This document shows, piece by piece, positions 5,942 to 11,682 of a stretch of DNA of 64,000 nt (positions are counted from its first letter, which is position 1; the number at the start of each line of letters is the position of its first letter). The notes beneath the pieces were generated by a model. It saw only the letters and a list, made by a program, of their open reading frames with translations. It was not told the origin of the DNA and ran no database searches. The position numbers and the translations under genes were made by a program. Origin of the DNA: Chitinophaga cymbidii (lineage in GTDB: Bacteria > Bacteroidota > Bacteroidia > Chitinophagales > Chitinophagaceae); NCBI RefSeq assembly GCF_007992715.1, contig NZ_BKAU01000006.1:62001-126000 (forward strand), in the 5' to 3' direction.

Positions 5942-6886
5942 ATGAACTTCAACACATTTGACAGGCTGGTAAGCCGCAAAAGCGGTCATATCTATCGCTG
6001 GTTACTATTGCTGCTGCTTCCGGCCCAGTTTTCCATGGCACAAAGTGTCATGGTAGACGGTAAAAAGATGAATTATACAAGCTTTGGCCTCGAAAACCGT
6101 AAGCCCGGCGAGCCCGTGCTGGTCTTTGAAAGCGGCATGGGCTCCGGTGGCGGCGCATATGGCATGTTGTTTCCCGGACTTTCGGAAAAAGCCGCCGGCA
6201 TCGCATATGACCGGAACGGACTGGGCGGTTCCGACATTGATACTACGCTTAAAAGCGACCGTGATGTGGTGATGCGGCTGCATCATCTTTTGGAAACATT
6301 GAAGATCGCGCCGCCTTACGTTCTGGTTGGTCATTCCCTGGGCGGCGCTTTCATTCGCCTGTTCATAGCTGTTTACCCGGACGATGTAGCCGGTTTGTTA
6401 TTCATCGATCCTACCGATTTCATGCTGACAAAAAAAGAAGATGAGGAGATCAGAACGCTTTCAGGCAGTGCGATGGGGTACCGCGGCTTGTCCGCTTTTA
6501 TGCAGAAGCGTTTTTCCGCGGATGCAACGAGAACAGCAGGGGAGCGGTATGAAATGGAACGGGTCAGGAATAACGGGTATTTCAAAGAATATGTTTCGCT
6601 TGCGCCGCTTCCCGATATCCCGGTTACAGTGCTGCTTGCTTATAGCCGTCCGGTGGAACACGGGGAGAAACTGCTGGCGGATGAACTGAAGATCAACATC
6701 GTGCCGTGGTTCCGGGAAGTAGACCGCTTCCGCATGCTGCATTTTACAGCGCTGATAGAGAAGAACCACAATAGCCGTGTTGTATTGCTGCCGGGGCGCA
6801 GCCACGGTATCCATCATCAGGACCCTGCACTGGGTACCGCCGCCGTGCTGGACCTGTACAATCAGGTGAAAAACGGGAAACGATGA
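5942..6886 (+). CDS. Exported alpha/beta hydrolase
   Basis: This is a 314-residue alpha/beta-hydrolase fold protein with an N-terminal hydrophobic segment (about 19-34, ending FSMAQ), so it is probably exported to the periplasm. The nucleophile elbow is GHSLGG with Ser132. A conserved DPT follows at 156-158, and a C-terminal GRSHGIHH segment offers the catalytic His (about 288). An oxyanion-hole-like ESGMGSGGG lies near residue 63. The substrate is unknown: the family contains esterases, lipases and peptidases. It follows the terminator of the glucan locus and precedes a TlpA-like gene by 83 bp. Confidence 0.85.
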   Translation: MNFNTFDRLVSRKSGHIYRWLLLLLLPAQFSMAQSVMVDGKKMNYTSFGLENRKPGEPVLVFESGMGSGGGAYGMLFPGLSEKAAGIAYDRNGLGGSDIDTTLKSDRDVVMRLHHLLETLKIAPPYVLVGHSLGGAFIRLFIAVYPDDVAGLLFIDPTDFMLTKKEDEEIRTLSGSAMGYRGLSAFMQKRFSADATRTAGERYEMERVRNNGYFKEYVSLAPLPDIPVTVLLAYSRPVEHGEKLLADELKINIVPWFREVDRFRMLHFTALIEKNHNSRVVLLPGRSHGIHHQDPALGTAAVLDLYNQVKNGKR

Positions 6887-6969
6887 TTTCACAACACCAT
6901 CTTATTCATTCATCACATTCCGTTCCCTACCGCCGCAACGGGTATTATCCTTGCAAAAAATTATCCGCC

Positions 6970-8472
6970 ATGAAAAAATATCTTTCGCTTGTTCTCTTAC
7001 TGTGTTGCACGCAGGTATGTCTGTCCCAATCCATATTGACCGGCAAGGTCAATGCCCGCATAGCAGGAGAGGTGGAGCTGAACATTTCCCGCGATGTATG
7101 GTATCAGTCCGCCAATTCGGTATATAGCAAAATTGCGCCGGATGGCACGTTCTCATTTTCTGTTCCGGGGGATGATCCGGTGTTTGTCACCTTGCATTAT
7201 AACAAGAAGGAACAGCAGCTGCTGCTAAGCCCCGGCCGGCCTTTGCATGTTACATTTGCCGGGAACGACCTTCCCGGCACTATTCAATACACCGGCAAAG
7301 CGGCTGTTGAGAACGGCATGATCCACGCGTTCTTTCCGCCCCGCCCGTTTTTTATGAAGGAGTTCTCCGCTAAGAATGAATATGGAAAAATGTCTGAAGA
7401 TTCCCTGCTGCATATATTGTTGCCGGCTATTCTGAAGGAAGCGGACAGCTTGCGGCAGCTCGTTAAAAAGTCAGCCATACCCGCTGATATCAGGGCTTCG
7501 CTTGCCACCCAGATCAAATATTATTATGCACTGAACATGGACGAATTTTCATCTGTGCTGAGCAGCTACACGAAGAACCCCGCCGTGCAGCGCTGGCAGG
7601 ATACGCTGATGCACATTACAGGCATTCCGTCCATGCAGGAAATGGACAGAAGCCCATACGCAGGGTATTTCCTCTATGCCTGCGCGAAGTATGAAATGAG
7701 AAGGCTGGGCCTCATTTACCGGAAAGATAAGGCGCGGGGCCAGCAACTGCTGGTGGAAGCCACCGGCCTGCCCTTCGATTCGTTGATGCACCTGGCAAAG
7801 ACATACGGCGATGAGATCATTGCGGTCCTGCTTGCCGAAAAGTCGATGCCCGCGCCGCAATTCGAGCGGCTGCTATCCAACCGCCTGATCTATTATTGCA
7901 ACGACCAGGAGCTGCCCATGGCCCGGAAGCTCATGGCCGGCATCGATGAACATTTTGCCGCAGGAAAGGAAGCGGAAAACGGACATAAAGGGATCGCGGC
8001 GCTGGAAGCCATGCTGGAAAAGGGAAAGCAGAATACGGGCATCGCTTTCCGGAAAGACTACCGGGAGATATCCACGGTCAACGAGTTGCTGGCGCCCTAC
8101 CAGGGAAAGATCGTGTATCTCGATATCTGGGGGACCTGGTGCGGCTGGTGCAAAGTGGAAATGGGATATGTGCCCGATCTGAAAACGAGGATGTCCGGCA
8201 AGGATGTGGTATTTCTTTATCTGAGCAATGACGATGAAGAGGCGGACAGGAAATGGCGGGAGTATGTGCAGCTGAACGGGATCACCGGGGAACATGTAAG
8301 GATGAGTAACGAACGTATTGAAAAGATATGGAAGGAGTTGTTGCCGGGTGAGGAAGCCAGGAAGTATCCTACGTATTTCATATTTGACCGTAATGGAAGG
8401 GTGGCGGTGAAAGAAGCGAAGCGGCCTAGTGATGGGGAGGCGTTGTATGCGCAGTTATCCGGATTGTTATAA
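6970..8472 (+). CDS. TlpA-like thioredoxin-fold protein with N-terminal extension
   Basis: The C-terminal third (about residues 370-500) is a thioredoxin domain of the TlpA/ResA type with the active site WCGWC (Cys391, Cys394) and the cis-proline element KYPTYF. The long N-terminal part resembles the extension often found on Bacteroidota TlpA proteins. The start at 6970 gives a signal peptide ending CLSQS; an upstream in-frame ATG at 6883 overlaps the previous gene and would put 29 residues before the signal, so it is rejected. It probably reduces or isomerises disulfides in the periplasm. Its partner is unknown. An AT-rich defence-like module follows directly. Confidence 0.87.
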   Translation: MKKYLSLVLLLCCTQVCLSQSILTGKVNARIAGEVELNISRDVWYQSANSVYSKIAPDGTFSFSVPGDDPVFVTLHYNKKEQQLLLSPGRPLHVTFAGNDLPGTIQYTGKAAVENGMIHAFFPPRPFFMKEFSAKNEYGKMSEDSLLHILLPAILKEADSLRQLVKKSAIPADIRASLATQIKYYYALNMDEFSSVLSSYTKNPAVQRWQDTLMHITGIPSMQEMDRSPYAGYFLYACAKYEMRRLGLIYRKDKARGQQLLVEATGLPFDSLMHLAKTYGDEIIAVLLAEKSMPAPQFERLLSNRLIYYCNDQELPMARKLMAGIDEHFAAGKEAENGHKGIAALEAMLEKGKQNTGIAFRKDYREISTVNELLAPYQGKIVYLDIWGTWCGWCKVEMGYVPDLKTRMSGKDVVFLYLSNDDEEADRKWREYVQLNGITGEHVRMSNERIEKIWKELLPGEEARKYPTYFIFDRNGRVAVKEAKRPSDGEALYAQLSGLL

Positions 8473-8490
8473 AAAAAATCACCTGATTTT

Positions 8491-8520
8491 TTTGTGGGTT
8501 GATTTTTTATTCTATATTTG
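8491..8520 (+). promoter_or_regulatory. Bacteroidota-type promoter upstream of the abi module
   Basis: TTTG (8491-8494) and TATATTTG (8513-8520) match the -33 and -7 elements of Bacteroidota housekeeping promoters, with exactly 18 bp between them. Transcription would start near 8524-8527, just ahead of the structured RNA and outside the preceding thioredoxin gene. Confidence 0.7.
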
Positions 8521-8523
8521 TGA

Positions 8524-8580
8524 TGACATAGTCTGCCACCCCTCTGTTTCATGGGCAAATCTGGCAGGCTCTTTTTTTTT
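8524..8580 (+). ncRNA. Candidate abiF-type structured RNA (RNA antitoxin) upstream of Abi_2 gene
   Basis: Between a well-formed promoter and the Abi_2 start there is a short segment that folds. AGTCTGCCA (8530-8538) pairs with TGGCAGGCT (8562-8570) over 9 bp with one G-U, around a 23-base loop, and nine T residues follow (8572-8580). The loop holds CCC and GGG tracts that could form an inner helix or a pseudoknot. The stop-free frame running through this stretch encodes nothing recognisable. From memory, a conserved 'abiF' RNA motif upstream of Abi_2 genes has been described in Bacteroidota and other phyla. The position, size and U-tract fit, but membership needs a covariance-model search. 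Confidence 0.62.
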
Positions 8581-8593
8581 ATACCACCTCGTT

Positions 8594-9577
8594 ATGAATA
8601 TGTTTGTAGCCCCTTCTCTGACTATATCAGAGCAAGTGCAATTATTTAAAGACAGAGGTTTGATTATTGCATCAAACGATGTCGTTGAACACTGGTTATC
8701 TCATATCAGTTATTTCAGGTTAAATGGTTATGCCAACAAACTTAGAAATCCGGAAACCGGTGATTTTCTCCCTGGCTGTACTTTTGAGCAGATCACGAGG
8801 CTCTACCTGTTTGACAAGCATCTGAAGCTGGTATTGTTTGATGCAATAGAAACAATAGAGGTCGCTTTCAGAACGCTGATATCAAACCAGATGTCTTCCG
8901 TGTATGGGGCGCATTGGTATTTGAACAGGGAACGCTTTTTGCCTACGTTCAGGTTTGATGACTTTATCGCGTATCTGCAACGAAGTATGATAAATAGTGA
9001 AGACCCCGCGATAAAAAGATACAGGAAAAATTCCAATGACTTGCCCACTCTTCCCTCCTGGATAGTGATGGAGCTGCTGCCTTTCGGCTCAATATCAAGG
9101 ATATTCGAATACCTCTCCGCAAGAGATGTCAAACATCATATTTGCAGCAGGTACAATTTGCCTGATAACATCCTTGTCAACTGGCTGCATTGCTTTTCCC
9201 AGTTGCGAAACAGATGCGCGCATCATGGTCAGATCATCTACAGATCAACCGCGAAAACCATTGTTGTACCCACGGGGAACAGATACAGGTTTTTAGCGGA
9301 AACGGAGGGGCTGGACGGAAGTAAACTCTACAGTACATTATGCTGTATCCAGTATCTTGTAGAAAAGATAGAACCTTCATCTTCCTTTAAACGTATGCTT
9401 TTACAACTGGTGGAAGACAATCCGGAGATAGATTACGGATATATGGGATTTCCTCCAAACTGGCGGTTGGAGCAGATCTGGCATGTGCTTTGGCAATGGC
9501 TTATGCCTGATGAAACAGATATGCCTGAAATAGAAGCAGGCTGGCTGCCATTGACCAGCCTGTTCTATGCAGATTGA
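8594..9577 (+). CDS. Abi_2 (AbiD/AbiF-like) HEPN-family abortive-infection protein
   Basis: This 327-residue protein has the Abi_2 features: an N-terminal ISYFRLNGY segment, a central helical region with LFDKHLKLVLFDAIETIEVAFR, and the HEPN RNase motif RNxxxH as R205-N-R-C-A-H210. Family members are phage-defence or toxin RNases. The start at 8594 is used because the upstream in-frame extension runs back through the promoter, the structured RNA and the tail of the previous gene; ATG at 8600 is an alternative. The gene is visibly more AT-rich than its neighbours, a sign of horizontal acquisition. It ends 5 bp from the convergent M3 peptidase gene with no terminator between them. Confidence 0.88.
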   Translation: MNMFVAPSLTISEQVQLFKDRGLIIASNDVVEHWLSHISYFRLNGYANKLRNPETGDFLPGCTFEQITRLYLFDKHLKLVLFDAIETIEVAFRTLISNQMSSVYGAHWYLNRERFLPTFRFDDFIAYLQRSMINSEDPAIKRYRKNSNDLPTLPSWIVMELLPFGSISRIFEYLSARDVKHHICSRYNLPDNILVNWLHCFSQLRNRCAHHGQIIYRSTAKTIVVPTGNRYRFLAETEGLDGSKLYSTLCCIQYLVEKIEPSSSFKRMLLQLVEDNPEIDYGYMGFPPNWRLEQIWHVLWQWLMPDETDMPEIEAGWLPLTSLFYAD

Positions 9578-9582
9578 ATTTT

Positions 9583-11682
9583 TTATTTATCCAGCCCGCG
9601 GTTCTTCAGCAGGAACTTCACTTCCGGCGCCCGCATTCTGAATGCTTTATAAAGATTCATCGGATCGTCCGTATCGCCTTTTTCCAGCACGTTCCTGCGG
9701 AACGATGCGGCAGTGGCGGGATCAAAGATGTCGCCGGTTTCCTTGAACGCGGCGAATGCGTCGCTGTCCAGCACTTCAGACCAGATATAGCTGTAGTATC
9801 CCGCGGAATATCCGCCGGAGAAAATATGCTGGAAATAGGTGCTTTTGTACCGCGGCGCGATCTGGTCGATCAGGCCGAGCTTTTCCATTTGCGTTTTCTC
9901 GAAGCTCACCGGATCTACCTGCTGGCCCGCGGGGAGGGTGTGATAGCCCATGTCCAGCAGGGAAGCGGCGAGGTATTCCACGGTGGCGAAGCCCTGGTTG
10001 AATTTGGAAGCGCTTTTCATTTTTTCTACCAACCCGTCGGGTATGATCGCGCCGGTTTCATAATGTTTGGCGTAGAGTTGCAGCACCTCTGGCTCAAATG
10101 CCCAATGTTCCATAATTTGAGAGGGCAGCTCTACGAAGTCGCGCGGCACGGAGGTGCCGGAAAGGGTTTCGTATTTTACGGCGGAGAGCAGGCCGTGCAG
10201 AGCGTGACCGAATTCATGGAAGAATGTTTCCACTTCATCCGGCGTCAGCAACGCAGGCTGATTGCCGTTCGGTTTTGAAAAATTGCATACGATGGACACT
10301 ACCGGTGATACGCCTGCGGCCTGTTTGCGGTAGGAGGTCATCCATGCGCCGCCGCGTTTGGAAGTGCGGGGAAAGAAGTCCATGTAGATCACACCGATGT
10401 GTTTGCCATTGGCTTCCTGCACTTCATAAGCCATCGCATCGGTATGATACAGCGGAATATCCTTAATGGGCAGGAATTTCAGGCCGTACAGCTTTTTAGC
10501 AACGGTGAAAATGCCTTCGCGCACGTTCTCCAGCTTGAAATAAGGCCGCATGGCCTCGGCATCGTAGTTGTATTTTTCCTTGCGTACTTTATCCGCATAG
10601 TAAAACCAGTCCCAGGCTTGCAGCTGCTCACCTTTTCCTTCGCGGTCCATTACTTTCTGCATTTCCGCGGCTTCCTCTTTCGCAACCGGCAGGGCTGCAT
10701 TCCACAGGCGGGTCAGCAGCTCGTTCGCCTGCGCCGGTGTTTTGGCCATGTTTTCTTCCAGGATGAAATCCGCGTGGCTGGCATATCCGAGCAGTGCGGC
10801 CTTGCTGGCTCTCAGCATGGCGATCTTTGCCACGATCTCTTTATTGTCTTTGTCGTTGCCCTGGTTGCCGCGGCTGGTGTACCCCTTGTACATGATCTCC
10901 CGCAGCCGGCGGTTGTCCGCATATTGCAGGAAGGGCATTACGCTGGCGTTGTGCAGGGTGAAGCGCCATTTGCCGGGCTTGCCGGCTTCTTTCGCTGAGT
11001 TGGCGGCCGCTTCTTTGAGCGACGCGGGCAGGCCGGCGAGGTCTTCTTCCTTGTCTACGATCAGCTCGAAGCTGTTGGTTTCCGCGAGGAGGTTCTGGCC
11101 GAAACGTACGGTCAGCAGCGAGAGCTCTTTGTTGATCTCCCGCATTTGCGCCTGTTTGTCCGCGTCCAGGTTGGCGCCGGCGCGTACGAAGGATTTGTAG
11201 GTTTTTTCCAGCAGGCGTTTTTGTTCGGGCGTGAGCTTGCCGGGCTTGTTATGTACGGCCTTTATCAGTCCGAAGAGCACGGTATCCAGGTAAATATCGT
11301 CGCTGTGCTGCGCCAGCTTGGGCGCCATCTGCCGGGAGATATTTTCCAGTTCCGGGTTGGTATTGGCGGAGGTGAGATTATAGAAAACGGTACTGACCTT
11401 CCGGAGCAGCGCGCCGCTTTTTTCCAGCGCAACGATGGTGTTTTCGAATGTTGGCGCTGCTTTCCGGATAACGGCAATATGGCCGTTCTGCGCTTTGATC
11501 CCTTCCTCAAAGGCCGGGATGATATGCTCCGGCCTGATCTGGTCGAACGGCGGTACGCCGAACGGTGTCTGATATTCCTTTAAAAAAGGATTGTCTGTTG
11601 CGGGCGATTGCGCCGCCGCTGCTGTTCCTGTCATCATACTTACTGCTAAGATCAGGTTCTTTGTTGTGTTTTTGATATGCAT
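9583..11682 (-). CDS. dcp: M3 family zinc metallopeptidase, dipeptidyl carboxypeptidase-like
   Basis: This is a 699-residue peptidase of family M3 that removes C-terminal dipeptides or cleaves short oligopeptides. The zinc motif is HEFGH (His489, Glu490, His493), with the third ligand Glu518 in DFVELPSQ. The N-terminus (about 1-24, ending AAAAQ) is a signal peptide, placing it in the periplasm. The phrase NPFLKEYQTPFGVPPFDQI near the start is typical of bacterial Dcp. It lies 38 bp downstream of the Mrp antiporter operon on the same strand, so read-through from that operon is possible. Confidence 0.93.
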   Translation of the reverse strand: MHIKNTTKNLILAVSMMTGTAAAAQSPATDNPFLKEYQTPFGVPPFDQIRPEHIIPAFEEGIKAQNGHIAVIRKAAPTFENTIVALEKSGALLRKVSTVFYNLTSANTNPELENISRQMAPKLAQHSDDIYLDTVLFGLIKAVHNKPGKLTPEQKRLLEKTYKSFVRAGANLDADKQAQMREINKELSLLTVRFGQNLLAETNSFELIVDKEEDLAGLPASLKEAAANSAKEAGKPGKWRFTLHNASVMPFLQYADNRRLREIMYKGYTSRGNQGNDKDNKEIVAKIAMLRASKAALLGYASHADFILEENMAKTPAQANELLTRLWNAALPVAKEEAAEMQKVMDREGKGEQLQAWDWFYYADKVRKEKYNYDAEAMRPYFKLENVREGIFTVAKKLYGLKFLPIKDIPLYHTDAMAYEVQEANGKHIGVIYMDFFPRTSKRGGAWMTSYRKQAAGVSPVVSIVCNFSKPNGNQPALLTPDEVETFFHEFGHALHGLLSAVKYETLSGTSVPRDFVELPSQIMEHWAFEPEVLQLYAKHYETGAIIPDGLVEKMKSASKFNQGFATVEYLAASLLDMGYHTLPAGQQVDPVSFEKTQMEKLGLIDQIAPRYKSTYFQHIFSGGYSAGYYSYIWSEVLDSDAFAAFKETGDIFDPATAASFRRNVLEKGDTDDPMNLYKAFRMRAPEVKFLLKNRGLDK

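Follow-up and report, generated by a model that had tools for sequence, protein, structure and literature searches.

Abi_2/AbiF proteins with the HEPN ribonuclease motif are in some bacteria encoded next to a small RNA that holds them in check. A 64-kb stretch of the Chitinophaga cymbidii genome, hereafter the window, contains a short block (8491-9577) that raises the question of whether such a pair is present here. A sequence-only reading had proposed that the block is an acquired AbiF HEPN gene with an upstream RNA antitoxin. We therefore asked what the gene encodes, whether the RNA preceding it is related to the RNAs at other AbiF loci, how the block came to its present site, and how it would work.

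Layout of the locus and its promoter

The block lies between two convergent neighbors, a thioredoxin-like domain gene (6883-8472) on one side and an M3 peptidase gene (9583-11682) on the other. Within it, a TATATTTG box (8513-8520) is followed by a 57-nt structured RNA (8524-8580) and then by a gene for a 327-aa Abi_2 protein (8594-9577). One predicted abiF-type RNA and a putative promoter box are thus positioned ahead of an Abi_2/AbiF HEPN gene (Table 1).

The -7 box of Bacteroidota promoters has the consensus TAnnTTTG, with which TATATTTG at 8513-8520 agrees. Such boxes occur in the window at chance level (26 found vs 27.3 expected), and the case for a promoter therefore rests on the position of the box, not on the box alone. 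Among 60 distinct homologous loci (a count that excludes L025, L051, L078, and duplicates), 36 have TAnnTTTG no more than 30 nt 5' of the stem, compared with 63 of 6569 control pieces; in these 36 loci the box is always 18-20 nt from the stem, and the other 24 are without it. This kept position confirms the promoter that had been proposed ahead of the RNA. A scan for E. coli-type promoters gave no match at the site.

Table 1. Predicted features of the block, in window coordinates
Feature	Position	Strand	Basis or remark
Bacteroidota-type promoter (candidate)	8491-8520	+	-7 box TATATTTG at 8513-8520; possible -33 TTTG at 8491-8494
abiF-type RNA, predicted antitoxin, divergent subtype, 57 nt	8524-8580	+	held-out model R1; near-invariant in related loci; no Rfam match
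Outer stem, 5' strand	8530-8537	+	pairs with 8563-8570; RNAfold adds A8538-U8562; fold, and covariation in 53 homologs
Inner helix, 5' strand, CCC	8539-8541	+	pairs with GGG 8553-8555; position by homology; inner positions covary
Loop, CUCUG then variable part	8542-8552	+	alignment of ten related loci
Inner helix, 3' strand, GGG	8553-8555	+	fold, alignment of related loci
3' bulge, CAAAUCU	8556-8562	+	alignment of ten related loci
Outer stem, 3' strand (8563-8570), then C and nine U	8563-8580	+	predicted intrinsic terminator of the RNA itself; sequence, fold
abiF gene, 327 aa, predicted Abi_2/AbiF HEPN ribonuclease toxin	8594-9577	+	homology; alternative start ATG at 8600
HEPN catalytic motif RNRCAH, R205-H210	9206-9223	+	aligned with PbAbiF R210 and H215

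The gene encodes a homolog of PbAbiF

The product of 8594-9577 matched the Abi_2 domain with 169.6 bits, over the curated cut-off of 25.6, and the PADLOC AbiD model with 228.2 bits; an NCBIfam search of the protein returned nothing at E≤1. Among solved structures, sequence searches gave 8vz6 as the sole credible relative, with an E value of 5.9e-42 from the single protein and 4.3e-87 from a 35-sequence profile. This structure is named as PbAbiF bound to its RNA, and an R210A+H215A variant of the protein is reported to be inactive (PMC12373285). Residues R205 and H210 of the R-phi-x3-H motif in the window protein align with R210 and H215 of 8vz6, and none of the 35 aligned sequences departs from R205, N206, A209, or H210. 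Judged by homology, 8594-9577 encodes a relative of PbAbiF, an Abi_2/AbiF HEPN protein, and toxic RNase activity of the product is predicted. The domain score, the R205-N-R-C-A-H210 motif, and the homology to 8vz6 bear out the Abi_2 protein with an RNxxxH HEPN motif that had been recognized from the letters.

The nearest protein found had 66% identity (43 proteins at E≤1e-20). Protein-pattern scans of the genome-contig and viral-contig collections returned no relative; the genome search did find relatives. Positions 9490-9577 encode a C-terminal tail of about 28 residues that extends past the usual end of the family and, among the 35 aligned sequences, is held in common only with P0002.

The upstream RNA belongs to a covarying family

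In the RNAfold prediction, 8530-8538 pairs with 8562-8570 in a 9-bp stem, after which come one C and nine U residues (8572-8580), in agreement with the 57-nt segment, 9-bp stem, and nine U described earlier; the program shifts the 5' strand of the inner helix by one base inside a run of four C. The folding energy was unremarkable (z of -1.78, with 12 of 200 shuffles folding equally well), single-sequence folding separated the RNA poorly from shuffles, and the case for the RNA is therefore carried by comparative evidence. A simple terminator scan with a loop limit of 8 did not list the terminator of the RNA.

We compared the upstream regions of 68 homolog loci, most of which have one RNA of about the size of the window RNA. 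The usual layout is a promoter box, a short leader, an outer stem, one unpaired base, a 3-bp inner helix, and a loop, followed on the 3' side by a bulge of about 6 nt, the outer stem, and a U-rich tail. The short form with a single motif, which the sequence-only reading held to be perhaps undescribed in this lineage, is not peculiar to it and is shared by most of these Bacteroidota homologs. Eight regions were dropped for poor fit to the structure finder (L023, L024, L025, L048, L051, L052, L066, and L078), four duplicates were removed, and three loci were held out (L033, L004, and L003, the window itself), leaving 53 aligned RNAs. RNAalifold predicted eight of nine pairs in these unaided. With the nine-pair structure given, 95.0% of 477 cells pair (82.7% in shuffles) and 55 cells carry changes in both partners (13.5 in shuffles), values that none of 500 shuffles reached, in a test that leans towards this layout because the structure finder searched for this very layout. 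Within this alignment the outer and inner helices both covary, and the covariance support across homologs on which the proposal had been made to depend was thus found in both helices.

A covariance model, R1, was built from the 53 RNAs with the clade of the window held out. Searched over the 64 kb with filters off, it placed 8524-8580 first (25.6 bits, E of 0.00041), the next match having 13.7 bits. Genome-wide, the hairpin L082 scored 26.2 bits, above the 25.6 bits of the window RNA, so place and conservation are needed besides score; L082 was rejected as an abiF RNA since its sequence is that of a plain terminator hairpin. Among 22 further loci (held-out, dropped, and truncated or distant Abi_2 loci, 18 of them never in R1 training), 15 matched at E≤1 on the gene strand, the weakest being L066 (14.7 bits, E of 0.47). 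L031 matched on the opposite strand only, and R1 found no match in L002, L025, L027, L028, L029, or L062. Locus L002 (G000 C4 674433-674951) is a second, weak Abi_2 locus of the same genome, with 28.2 bits against the cut-off of 25.6.

Rfam gave no match in the window at gathering, the window RNA falling short of the RF03085 threshold, and abiF was absent from the matches at E≤10 in 8300-9700, which were chance matches only. The check with the Rfam abiF covariance model suggested in the sequence-only reading was accordingly negative, and support came from the model built in this analysis. Rfam detected abiF RNA in only 2 of 20 homologous loci (L008 and L012) and 2 of 14 further loci (L086 and L104), so abiF modules are probably undercounted; at gathering it also misses the related loci L033, L143, L144, L145, L004, L087, L096, L099, and L109.

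A blind scan of the inner helix defines RNA subtypes

As the covariation test leans to the sought layout, a blind scan of the inner helix offered a fairer one. The pattern left two inner-helix positions free on each side and matched 33 stretches in genome contigs and four in viral contigs. At both free positions, 28 of the 37 matches were complementary; 27 of these 28 have at least two of three further outer pairs, and in 26 the 12 bases after the stem include seven or more T. The complementary match L117 has only two T after the stem. L101, with no further pairs and no T, was set aside as a chance match. The nine non-complementary matches have one to six T, and L094 alone among them has all three further pairs. 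Complementary letters at the free positions were thus present in all matches that showed the remainder of the RNA. By covariance model, alignment, and blind scan, the window RNA is homologous in structure to the RNAs at other AbiF loci.

The 27 fall into four inner-helix types: AGC/GCU, CCC/GGG, CUC/GAG, and GGC/GCC. The CCC/GGG subtype of the window is also found at L033, L143, L144, L145, L087, L096, L099, and L109, and CUC/GAG at L004. When ten related loci were aligned, the inner helix, loop, and bulge were near-invariant, with a variable loop part of about 6 nt in most. RNAs of the window clade are 81-100% alike, and the 300-nt 5' flanks of the same loci are mostly at shuffled level. We found no published description of the window subtype, which may be contained in Zilberzwige-Tal et al. 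2025 or Weinberg et al. 2017.

Two abiF RNA copies were seen at each of three loci: L050 (1339-1397 and 1429-1487), L048 (1403-1455 and 2484-2538), and L103 (2673-2736 and 2806-2874). RNAs of the AGC/GCU type were present in Verrucomicrobia, Chloroflexi, and other genomes (L084, L085, L091, L106, L107, L110, and L111); no Abi_2 was found in the DNA fetched around these seven.

Linkage to abiF and signs of acquisition

A second model, R2, was built from A2, an alignment fitted to the model and leaning, like the covariation test, towards the sought layout. Its training included many of the loci counted here, and in 60 same-genus genomes this partly self-trained model found 34 RNAs at 40 bits or more. 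For 23 of the 34, an Abi_2 match on the same strand starts no more than 250 nt away; each of the 23 Abi_2 loci found in these genomes has the RNA directly upstream. Three of the 23 are broken or remnant (G006, G1011, and G978 near 8491877); two unmatched Abi_2 rows are 3' pieces of broken genes. Homologs were present in 16 of 60 genus, 29 of 294 family, 44 of 396 order, and 48 of 395 phylum genomes, in samples that overlap. Relatives of the protein were also found in 440 plasmid and 70 phage records, none of them reaching 60% identity.

Comparison of related genomes for presence or absence of the block, as had been suggested, revealed an empty site: G229 has the same neighbors with neither RNA nor abiF between them, and its M3 peptidase, 85% similar, is the closest among the 22 of 60 genomes that have one. 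The block had also been described as more AT-rich than its flanks, and the gene indeed has 43.2% GC compared with 53.7% for the window, the lowest value among 984-nt stretches outside the block (in 20-nt steps) being 46.2%. Its GC3 is 48%, compared with 57-75% for the other long ORFs listed. Flanking repeats of transposition were not evident, with only short or imperfect pairs at the block edges. The composition and the empty site are signs of horizontal acquisition. Three loci of same-genus genomes have their middle 80 bases in common with named Chitinophaga records, L172 with L096 (C. hostae), L173 with L099 (C. eiseniae), and L143 with L116 (Chitinophaga sp. CF118), in line with the genus of the window.

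abiF RNAs without a toxin gene

Several abiF RNAs stand apart from a toxin gene. G978 carries five tandem toxin-less units of about 328 nt between two abiF genes (L146/L157, C1 689289-692125), and G1006 carries three (L156, C1 8211463-8213591); overall, units are about 280-330 nt long. Every unit combines a TATATTTG-type box with an abiF RNA and its U-tract, and retains a short piece of the beginning of abiF. Across the eight units the stems have no differences in 504 letter comparisons, compared with 0.116 per site in the rest; the whole RNA differs by 0.076 and the 25 nt ahead of it by 0.219. This identity suggests, without proving, selection on the stems, as the eight units are related to each other and do not yield independent comparisons.

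In the 60-genome survey, G996 (L096), G982 (L099), and G967 have an RNA at 40 bits or more and no Abi_2 match. RNAs of the window type occur at L087 (4425-4482) and L099 (5507-5564) with no abiF in 8 kb, and with abiF remnants at L096 (6387-6444) and L109 (5741-5798).

Nine viral contigs fit the canonical abiF RNA pattern, all with at least 44.9 bits by R2. No Abi_2 was found in the fetched DNA of eight of the nine (L189 and L191-L197), the contigs being partial and fetched in part and the profile Bacteroidota-made. Two phage contigs from the blind viral scan, L119 (8763-8822) and L120 (6104-6168), likewise have an abiF RNA and no Abi_2 in the fetched part. Genes near these RNAs are phage genes; they encode integrases (L119, L120, and L194), an exonuclease subunit of DNA polymerase (L192), an amidase (L196), and a virion-type protein (L189). 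A search of the phage collection with the L119 RNA region gave no match. A solo abiF RNA has been reported in cyanophage S-CREM1, its function being given as unconfirmed (PMC9964418, PMC12197685). The solo RNAs of phages may serve as RNA decoys, or they may mark attachment sites within abiF RNA genes.

A broader, speculative reading, which we think doubtful, is that abiF RNAs are selected apart from the toxin, with bacterial arrays and orphans shielding against AbiF and phage RNAs acting as decoys for host AbiF. If true, the shield would amount to anti-addiction or dosage protection against AbiF modules, and the arrays would show a single antitoxin RNA gene turning into a CRISPR-like array. 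The toxin-less copies would make both the passage from antitoxin RNA to array and phage RNA counter-defense against AbiF testable.

Proposed mode of action and alternatives

The best explanation of the block is, with a probability of about 0.83, an acquired AbiF module with an RNA antitoxin that works in a type III-like way and has a divergent RNA subtype. The core of the sequence-only reading is thereby supported by homology, covariation, linkage in the genus, and the empty site. Its anatomy, homology, covarying RNA structure, linkage, and acquisition signs were observed here. The mechanism is taken from relatives because the window matches them part for part and in order, and co-transcription, binding, neutralization, and RNase toxicity are accordingly those expected from them. 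One promoter would transcribe the 57-nt RNA, and the stem and U-tract would stop most transcription, with occasional read-through yielding abiF mRNA. RNA in excess would bind the AbiF dimer and block the HEPN active site (R205/H210), keeping the RNase off. Were RNA synthesis to drop, as for example in phage-infected cells, free AbiF would cut RNA and growth would stop; a role in phage defense and its trigger are the most tentative step, and the acquired state of the block fits such a role without demonstrating it. Tandem RNA repeats, which in classical type III systems are cut by the toxin, were not seen, a single strong R1 match indicating one motif only. This lowers the fit with classical type III systems, not with working like one. 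Some homologs, such as L025 and the second weak Abi_2 locus of this genome (L002), have no detectable RNA.

Improbably, the RNA could act in cis alone, as an attenuator whose stem and U-tract limit abiF transcription, and have no function once free. A stem followed by nine U is a terminator by design, and termination is reported to limit the toxin in C. difficile (PMC12373285). A terminator, however, needs no conserved inner helix, loop, or bulge, and these are near-invariant and covary; the RNA persists without a toxin gene at L087 and L099, the stems of the eight toxin-less array units are identical, and the relative RCd22 is reported to act in trans (PMC12373285). Less probable still is a decayed or silent module whose acquired gene no longer makes active toxin: broken copies do exist in the genus (G006 and G1011, with remnants at L096 and L109), but in the window the frame is intact, the catalytic residues are present, and the RNA and promoter box are intact. 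That the RNA loop directs cleavage to targets in the manner of Cas13 is hardly credible, for although the loop varies more than any other part of the RNA, only about 6 nt of it vary in most of the related loci, and the published account of PbAbiF is of a non-specific ssRNase that its RNA inhibits (PMC12737573).

Comparison with known systems

The abiF RNA of Rfam, RF03085, has the same place and layout and is found at the four loci named above, not in the window RNA. The PbAbiF-AbiFr pair of a Prevotellaceae bacterium (PDB 8vz6), reportedly described by Zilberzwige-Tal et al. in Cell in 2025, shares with the window a protein homologous over its length, the same catalytic R and H, and one short RNA adjoining the gene. 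In the usual RNA of Bacteroidota the inner helix is CGC/GCG, whereas the window RNA has CCC/GGG, a CUCU loop, and an AU-rich bulge. One AbiFr per PbAbiF monomer is reported to inhibit the non-specific ssRNase, and the AbiFr bulge is reported to inhibit the RNase (PMC12737573).

AbiFCd-RCd22 of C. difficile prophages has the same order of promoter, RNA, terminator, and abiF, with RNQCAH as the RNase motif where the window protein has RNRCAH (PMC12373285). There, most transcription is reported to end at the terminator, leaving RNA in excess, with read-through giving the toxin mRNA, and the RNA binds the toxin directly and neutralizes it both in cis and in trans (PMC12373285). With a length of about 100-130 nt, RCd22 has two abiF motifs and a separate terminator hairpin (PMC12373285), whereas the window has one motif, and its own stem and U-tract would terminate. 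AbiFCd-RCd22 lies in prophages, and the window block is chromosomal, between housekeeping-type genes. Lactococcal AbiD, AbiD1, and AbiF belong to the same Abi_2 family, in line with the PADLOC AbiD match of the window protein, and phage resistance is reported for them (PMC12373285).

A divergent yet covarying RNA subtype would serve as a natural experiment on what AbiF recognizes in its RNA and on whether RNA and toxin pairs are specific to each other. Cas13 has been proposed to descend from AbiF and its RNA. The doubled motif of RCd22 has been suggested as a possible step towards arrays (PMC12373285).
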